In this document: positions 3,828-45,911 of the stretch, one piece after another | Position numbering within the stretch: position 1 is the stretch's first letter | Layout: the number at the start of each line of letters is the position of its first letter | The notes under the pieces: generated by a model | What the model saw: only the letters and a program-made list of their open reading frames with translations | Told to the model about the DNA's origin: nothing | Databases searched by the model: none | Program-made: the position numbers and the translations under genes | From: Lachnospiraceae bacterium | Lineage (GTDB): Bacteria > Bacillota > Clostridia > Lachnospirales > Lachnospiraceae | Direction of reading: 5' to 3' | Length of the DNA: 45,911 bases | Assembly (NCBI GenBank): GCA_024698865.1 | Contig: JAILQS010000133.1 | Coordinates: forward strand, 1 to 45,911

Positions 3828-4499
3828 CTACTCTTTACGCGTGATAATTTTTGCAATATCTTCATAACTTGCTCCCTCCGGAATCTTATAGGTTCCAACG
3901 GAAATATCAGATGCATAGCCATGATTACATAAGAAATCATCAAACTTTATCGCACTGTCTACCACTCCGATATCTTTCATATATTCAGAAACCTGCTCTG
4001 ACCACATTCCGGGTTGTATCTTTGCTTTGGTATATTTCTTTTTTTCTTTTGCCGATGCATCTGCTCCTTTTGGTGACTTCGTCGGTGACAGGGTCGGTAC
4101 CGTCGTATCCATCGGCTCGATCGGTTTGATTGTTCCTATTGGAGAAATCGATGGCATTGGTGTCGGTGTAGGAGTTGCATCCTCTTTTTTACCGGTATCT
4201 TTCTTTGTTCCTGCTTCCTTGGATGCAGAATCGTCTTGACCGGCGTTATTCGAATCGGCAGCCTCGCCCTTATCTTCTGTATTTTTTTCATTATTGGCAG
4301 CGTCATCATCCTTCGCATCCGGACTTGCGCTTTGAATCACACGATCCTCTTCTTTTACCATGCCAAGTGCTTCTGCTTTTTCTATAATCTGCGCTTCCGT
4401 AAGTGTCTCATCTTTCTGCAGTTGATGCGACGCCATTACAATTACTGCTGAAAATACAATTCCTATTCCAAATCCTCTAAGAAAATATTTACGTTTCAC
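3828..4499 (-). CDS. Membrane-anchored MltG/YceG-like protein lacking the catalytic domain
   Basis: The 223-residue protein has a basic start and one N-terminal membrane helix (about residues 7-25). A long low-complexity linker rich in Asp, Lys, Thr, Ser and Pro runs from about 55 to 150 and includes TPTPTPMPSISP. The C-terminal domain of about 65 residues (IQPGMWSEQVSEYMKD... SVGTYKIPEGASYEDIAKII) resembles the LysM-like N-terminal subdomain of endolytic transglycosylase MltG/YceG. The catalytic YceG domain, with its essential Glu, is absent: real MltG proteins are 330-plus residues. It is therefore probably a cell-wall-facing binding or regulatory protein. The start is GTG with GAGG 7 bases upstream. 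It sits between a DUF6115-like gene and the acyltransferase gene with short gaps, suggesting one operon. Confidence 0.7.
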   Translation of the reverse strand: MKRKYFLRGFGIGIVFSAVIVMASHQLQKDETLTEAQIIEKAEALGMVKEEDRVIQSASPDAKDDDAANNEKNTEDKGEAADSNNAGQDDSASKEAGTKKDTGKKEDATPTPTPMPSISPIGTIKPIEPMDTTVPTLSPTKSPKGADASAKEKKKYTKAKIQPGMWSEQVSEYMKDIGVVDSAIKFDDFLCNHGYASDISVGTYKIPEGASYEDIAKIITRKE

Positions 4500-45734: not shown

Positions 45735-45775
45735 ATATTCCTCCCTATGCTTGCATTTTACCATTCTGGAATCGT

Positions 45776-45899
45776 CAAGACTCGCTCGCGAGTCTTGCGC
45801 GCCGGATTCGGGTCTGCTTCAGCAGACAAATTCCTGTCCGAATCCGTGCGCATCCTCGCGGAGCGTTTAACTCAGTCGGAGCTTGTACCCCGACTGAGT
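45776..45899. repeat. Block of three GC-rich inverted repeats (candidate dispersed repeat)
   Basis: Three hairpins follow one another. CAAGACTCG/CGAGTCTTG (45776-45784 and 45789-45797) is a perfect 9-base-pair stem with a CTCG loop. CGGATTCGG/CCGAATCCG (45803-45811 and 45838-45846) is flanked by GCGC/GCGC and encloses GTCTGC-TTCA-GCAGAC. ACTCAGTCGG/CCGACTGAGT (45870-45879 and 45890-45899) is 10 base pairs. The block is clearly more GC-rich than the AT-rich gaps elsewhere. No T-run follows, so these are not simple terminators. It may continue beyond the right edge. Confidence 0.6.
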
Positions 45900-45911
45900 A
45901 TAGTTTGTCAT
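45867..45911 (-). other. Short open frame at the window edge inside the hairpin block
   Basis: From the last base the minus strand reads ATG then 13 codons and TAA (MTNYTQSGYKLRLS). It could be the end of a gene lying outside the window or chance. Its stop falls inside the repeat, so the repeat may supply this C-terminus. Confidence 0.2.

Follow-up and report, generated by a model that had tools for sequence, protein, structure and literature searches.

Among described mobile repeats, REP/REPIN sequences and their RAYT transposases (PMC2817692, PMC3116915) are an example of palindromic, intergenic, high-copy and non-coding units that carry compensated hairpins and are moved in trans. PATEs and other non-autonomous derivatives of the IS200/IS605 family share hairpin ends, lack target duplications and are oriented by the lagging-strand template, which IS608 and ISDra2 are known to use (PMC6006769). 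ERIC, NEMIS, Ype and Efa repeats (PMC1590033) are likewise structured and intergenic, are larger than REPs and have no known transposase, while the mobile or repeat MRSC motifs, which come from comparative RNA searches (PMC11109978), occur in many copies per genome, covary strongly and are suspected to be selfish DNA.

We found that a block at the end of a 45,911-nt Lachnospiraceae contig (hereafter the window, meaning this whole stretch of DNA) is a single copy of a mobile DNA repeat of Lachnospiraceae, which is short, folds strongly and carries no gene, and we identify it as a mobile structured repeat with very high confidence. The family resembles each of these systems and differs from each. 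Unlike REP/REPINs, it is 130-192 nt long, combines at least three different hairpins, always in the same order, with a single-stranded core, lacks a GT(A/G)G head, is not tied to a RAYT gene and occurs throughout a Firmicutes family. Unlike PATEs and related derivatives, it is not linked to Y1 or TnpB genes, shows no fixed short target sequence at its left end and has hairpin sequences that change freely between genera. It is family-wide, whereas ERIC, NEMIS, Ype and Efa are limited to a few species, and its orientation is linked to replication. The MRSC example in PMC11109978 consists of one long stem carrying UYCCGG repeats, in contrast to the three domains and GCTCCGCGAGGAT core seen here. 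No description of the repeat was found in the searchable literature and databases, and as far as these searches reach the family had not been recorded before. We know of no relationship in sequence or architecture between ERIC, NEMIS, Ype or Efa and the Lachnospiraceae element.

Architecture of the repeat and its copies

The repeat lies on the minus strand of the window, where 138 of its approximately 192 nucleotides are present (45774-45911; covariance model R1 matched 45774-45901 with 124 bits) before it is truncated by the contig end at 45911. Read 5' to 3' in its own direction, it consists of an H1 domain, a core, a P2 stem containing an internal loop and the hairpin P3, and a terminal hairpin H3. 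H1 appears in a local form, ACTCAGTCGG / CCGACTGAGT (45870-45899, with a perfect 10-bp stem at 45870-45879/45890-45899), in which all 12 modelled pairs show double-sided changes. In complete long copies the sense 3' arm of H1 (45866-45881) has another partner, a perfectly matching 16-nt arm that would lie past the contig end, and the long-form-specific segment ATGACAAACTATA (45899-45911; also in loci L015-L019 and L023) adjoins the missing 54 nt. The core, AACGCTCCGCGAGGATGCGCA in sense orientation, occupies 45847-45867. P2 (45799-45851) is built of GCGC/GCGC and CGGATTCGG/CCGAATCCG, including a perfect 9-bp stem (45803-45811/45838-45846), carries an asymmetric 10-nt internal loop at 45828-45837 (sense ACAGGAATTT) and has double-sided changes in 11 of 13 pairs; nested within it, P3 (45812-45827; sense GTCTGC-TGAA-GCAGAC, 6-bp stem 45812-45817/45822-45827) has them in 6 of 6. 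H3 (45776-45797), CAAGACTCGC / GCGAGTCTTG, has perfect 10-bp arms (45776-45785/45788-45797) and covaries in all nine modelled pairs (helices 4 and 5), and the element ends ...CTTGAC at 45774.

The RNA folding energy was 7.8 SD (plus strand) and 8.4 SD (minus strand) below that of dinucleotide-shuffled sequences, none of 200 shuffles folding as well. The original prediction, made from the sequence alone, had described a three-hairpin block with one nested stem and no coding sense; every stem was found where it had been placed, and the element carries no gene. Its limits had been set at 45776-45899, which encloses these stems; the repeat itself begins at 45774, runs to the contig end and continues for about 54 nt in unbroken copies. 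The absence of a T-run, also predicted, holds for the subtype in the window, which thus lacks the hairpin-plus-T-run layout of an intrinsic terminator, but in other subtypes a T-run does follow H3.

The source genome (G000), a fragmented and 86%-complete assembly, yielded about 40 matches, mostly 99-100% identical, many of which lie at contig ends, so that some must be two halves of a single copy. Interior copies in this genome are complete units of about 192 nt, in which the additional 54 nt beyond the window's contig break supply a CCCCCACC/GGTGGGGG hairpin and the second arm for the 45866-45881 strand. Copies of the window subtype with both ends visible are mostly approximately 130 or 192 nt long; their ends are constant (TTTAAC...TTGAC), their flanks are unrelated, and there is in addition a variant with a deletion. 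What distinguishes the long form is a duplication of the H1 5' arm together with an inserted, nested CCCCCACC-type hairpin, a layout that recurs in other genera with changed sequences. A deletion between these directly repeated arms probably turned the long form into the short one.

The two ends, TTTAACTCAG and GTCTTGAC, do not form an inverted repeat, and no target-site duplication was detectable in 28 copies, whose flank similarity did not exceed that of shuffled controls (p = 0.24). The repeat is accordingly not a classical MITE, a class defined by terminal inverted repeats and target-site duplication; nor is it a REP, since in place of a palindrome of about 20-40 nt with a GTAG/GGAG-type head it forms a 130/192-nt unit ending in TTTAAC and TTGAC.

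Several copies have distinctive surroundings. In four loci (L187 at 90-240, L054 and L035 near 1500, and L198) the copy starts directly after an intrinsic terminator, its first T's extending the terminator's T-run, which may reflect a target preference. One Lachnospiraceae genome has two different subtypes arranged in tandem with about 130 nt between them (L119, 5840-6212), a complete rRNA operon lies between two same-orientation copies in G192 (L249, 3925-9793), and one copy (L257 of G226, 3977-4255) comes immediately after the aptamer of a TPP riboswitch and shares its strand.

Distribution, covariation and spread between genera

From 16 sequences in nine genomes we built a covariance model, which, searched against 250 Lachnospiraceae genera, matched 122 of them (E <= 0.001). 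Many of these had at least 13 scored copies; the complete genome G192 contains 33 copies, and G219 contains 46. Every match of a core-pattern scan that had a named family belonged to Lachnospiraceae. The original prediction had tentatively placed similar short sequences in genomes of this family. The core of about 20 nt is nearly invariant across genera, while the stems vary. In an alignment of 114 members, 94.4% of stem cells were paired, 38 of 40 pairs had changes on both sides, and covariation reached 0.64, compared with 0.17 after shuffling and 0.05-0.10 after sliding; this alignment leans towards structure because it was fitted to the model and its members were partly chosen by the core pattern, but the contrast is still very large. 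Together with the copies in the source genome, this covariation supports the predicted dispersed repeat of REP/MITE or structured-RNA type.

Searching 4,227 Rfam covariance models produced no gathering match in the window and nothing across the element at E <= 5, and further copies in ten loci were likewise without a match, ruling out a known RNA family. The presence of copies in isolates grown in culture, among them Eubacterium oxidoreducens and Lachnospira multipara, excludes an assembly artefact.

The element of the source genome is 98-100% identical to copies in these two species, Butyrivibrio and others, whereas topA identity between the source genome and three carriers (G118, G150 and G277) is only 66-71%. 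Since stem sequences vary freely between other genera, constraint alone does not explain such identity. The repeat moves and spreads between Lachnospiraceae genera. Carriage by plasmids or phages was considered and rejected, with no plasmid match and only two weak, unannotated phage-like records and four viral contigs.

Presence and absence at an orthologous site was seen between lepA and hemW. This site is filled in two genomes of one genus (G150 and G283, in each of which it holds the sole copy) and empty in a third (G282), which shows a gap of 7 nt at this position and lacks the element throughout its genome. The two copies (L307 and L308) differ at 0 of 131 positions, compared with about 11 differences per 100 in the flanking DNA, and this unchanged state reflects either selection, which could mean a function, or a short recombination tract. 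Divergence between the two genomes is also lower in the 100-200 nt around the copy.

Orientation with replication and the nature of the folded strand

Identity of the lepA-hemW copy between two species is one of several observations in line with a different explanation, in which the repeat is a cis-acting structured RNA (an attenuator, mRNA stabilizer or processing site) that has spread, like ERIC or NEMIS, in 5' or 3' untranslated regions. Copies between tandem genes mostly run in the same direction as these genes (40 vs 3 and 51 vs 4 in two counts), in some subtypes the last hairpin, with its T-run, looks like a terminator, and copies often lie just upstream of a start codon. The window copy, for instance, precedes the probable start of a PRC-barrel gene by about 40 nt and reads in the same direction as this gene, which we take from its sequence to be ylmC/ymxH-like.

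The analysis of replication is limited to five genomes, with its direction taken from GC skew and the genes from our own ORF calls. Orientation agreed with replication in 81 of 88 copies, as compared with 135 of 176 adjacent genes, and where neighbouring genes disagreed among themselves or ran counter to replication, the element sided with replication in 33 of 38 cases. In a joint regression the replication coefficient was 1.9 (bootstrap 1.24-4.05) and the gene coefficients were no different from zero; the initial 40 vs 3 bias was thus explained by replication once more copies were analyzed, and an effect of transcription was rejected. Two apparently antisense copies proved to flank an rRNA operon miscalled as ORFs. 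The orientation makes the sense strand the lagging-strand template, as expected of a PATE or other IS200/IS605 derivative.

The base pairs of the stems were informative in the same respect. A transcribed structured RNA is expected to tolerate G-U above A-C, but the stems contained 66 G-U and 67 A-C cells with one dominated column omitted (86 vs 69 with it). G-U made up 2.2% of their standard pairs, compared with 7.5% in 14 tRNAs from the same sequences, a comparison confined to standard pairs and thus without an A-C control, as the tRNA tool brackets only those. Copies also occur between convergent genes, and the only gene families to recur alongside them in different genera are generic transporters and housekeeping genes. 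We therefore consider the structured-RNA explanation unlikely. Replication-tied orientation and the parity of G-U and A-C point to selection on folded DNA, and on these grounds we read the repeat as a structured single-stranded-DNA mobile element rather than an RNA regulator. The original prediction had left REP/MITE-type DNA and structured RNA side by side; mobile structured DNA is the favoured half, outside the classical definitions of MITE and REP.

Candidate movers and significance for Lachnospiraceae

Hairpin ends, lagging-strand-template orientation and the lack of target duplication would all suit movement by a Y1 transposase, either of a REP/REPIN driven by its RAYT or of a PATE derived from IS200/IS605. 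Such a transposase (PF01797) was not matched in the 86%-complete source genome, however, nor in 44 of the 122 element-bearing genomes, and Y1 transposases, present in 153 of 250 genera, showed no association with the element (p = 0.44), ruling them out as obligate partners. Around 30 Y1 loci in 16 genomes a single weak element match was found. The arrangement typical of REPs, in which repeats flank a rayt gene and occur together with it, was not seen in the source genome, across the 250 genera or at these loci. At one locus (L290 of G201, 1780-1840) a hairpin, GCCCACTTCTACAAGTGGTGAGT, resembles the long-form module and adjoins a degraded tnpA and a tnpB-like fragment; it may be an IS200/IS605 end, which would favour Y1-driven movement, or a decayed element copy. 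Other Y1/TnpB loci had no shared ends and only short element fragments. With the GTAG/GGAG-type head also absent, we regard a Y1-moved repeat as doubtful.

The conserved core with variable stems, and the constant 3' end followed by unrelated flanks, could also be read as part of an RNA-guided system, such as an omega-RNA or bridge-RNA scaffold with its guide sequence in the flank. TnpB was not found in five carriers (G000, G010, G167, G185 and G186), and its absence from several element-rich genomes rules it out as a partner; Rfam gave no omega-RNA or HEARO match, and G-U pairs are few. This explanation is accordingly highly improbable.

No autonomous parent or recurrent neighbour gene emerged among 839 flanking ORFs, one apparent recurrent family being translation running through the element itself. 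The mover may work from another part of the genome, or it may no longer be present.

The repeat family is real: a discrete unit with fixed ends and near-identical copies, spread between genera, present or absent at an orthologous site, with compensated hairpins and replication-tied orientation. In behaviour it is closest to REP/PATE elements, and by the features tested it belongs to neither family. The best explanation, which we consider probable, is a non-coding mobile DNA repeat that has a short form of about 130 nt and a long one of about 192 nt and, being non-autonomous, is moved in trans; a single-stranded, fork-coupled mechanism also seems rather likely. In such a mechanism, the sense strand would fold on the exposed lagging-strand template, a single-strand-acting enzyme would recognize the terminal hairpins and core, and this enzyme would paste the unit into a new site, as happens in REP and IS200/IS605-type systems. 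More tentatively, a family-wide element may move as folded single-stranded DNA at the replication fork, its enzyme being something other than a Y1 transposase or a TnpB-associated system.

The repeat is present in about half of the genera sampled from Lachnospiraceae, a dominant family of gut bacteria. It breaks metagenome assemblies, many contigs of the source genome terminating in a copy, and it puts strong hairpins into untranslated regions, while its core provides a simple marker for annotating Lachnospiraceae genomes and for strain typing. A structured DNA element that spreads horizontally, with no earlier record within the reach of these searches and no enzyme assigned to it, sets a concrete search for its mover.
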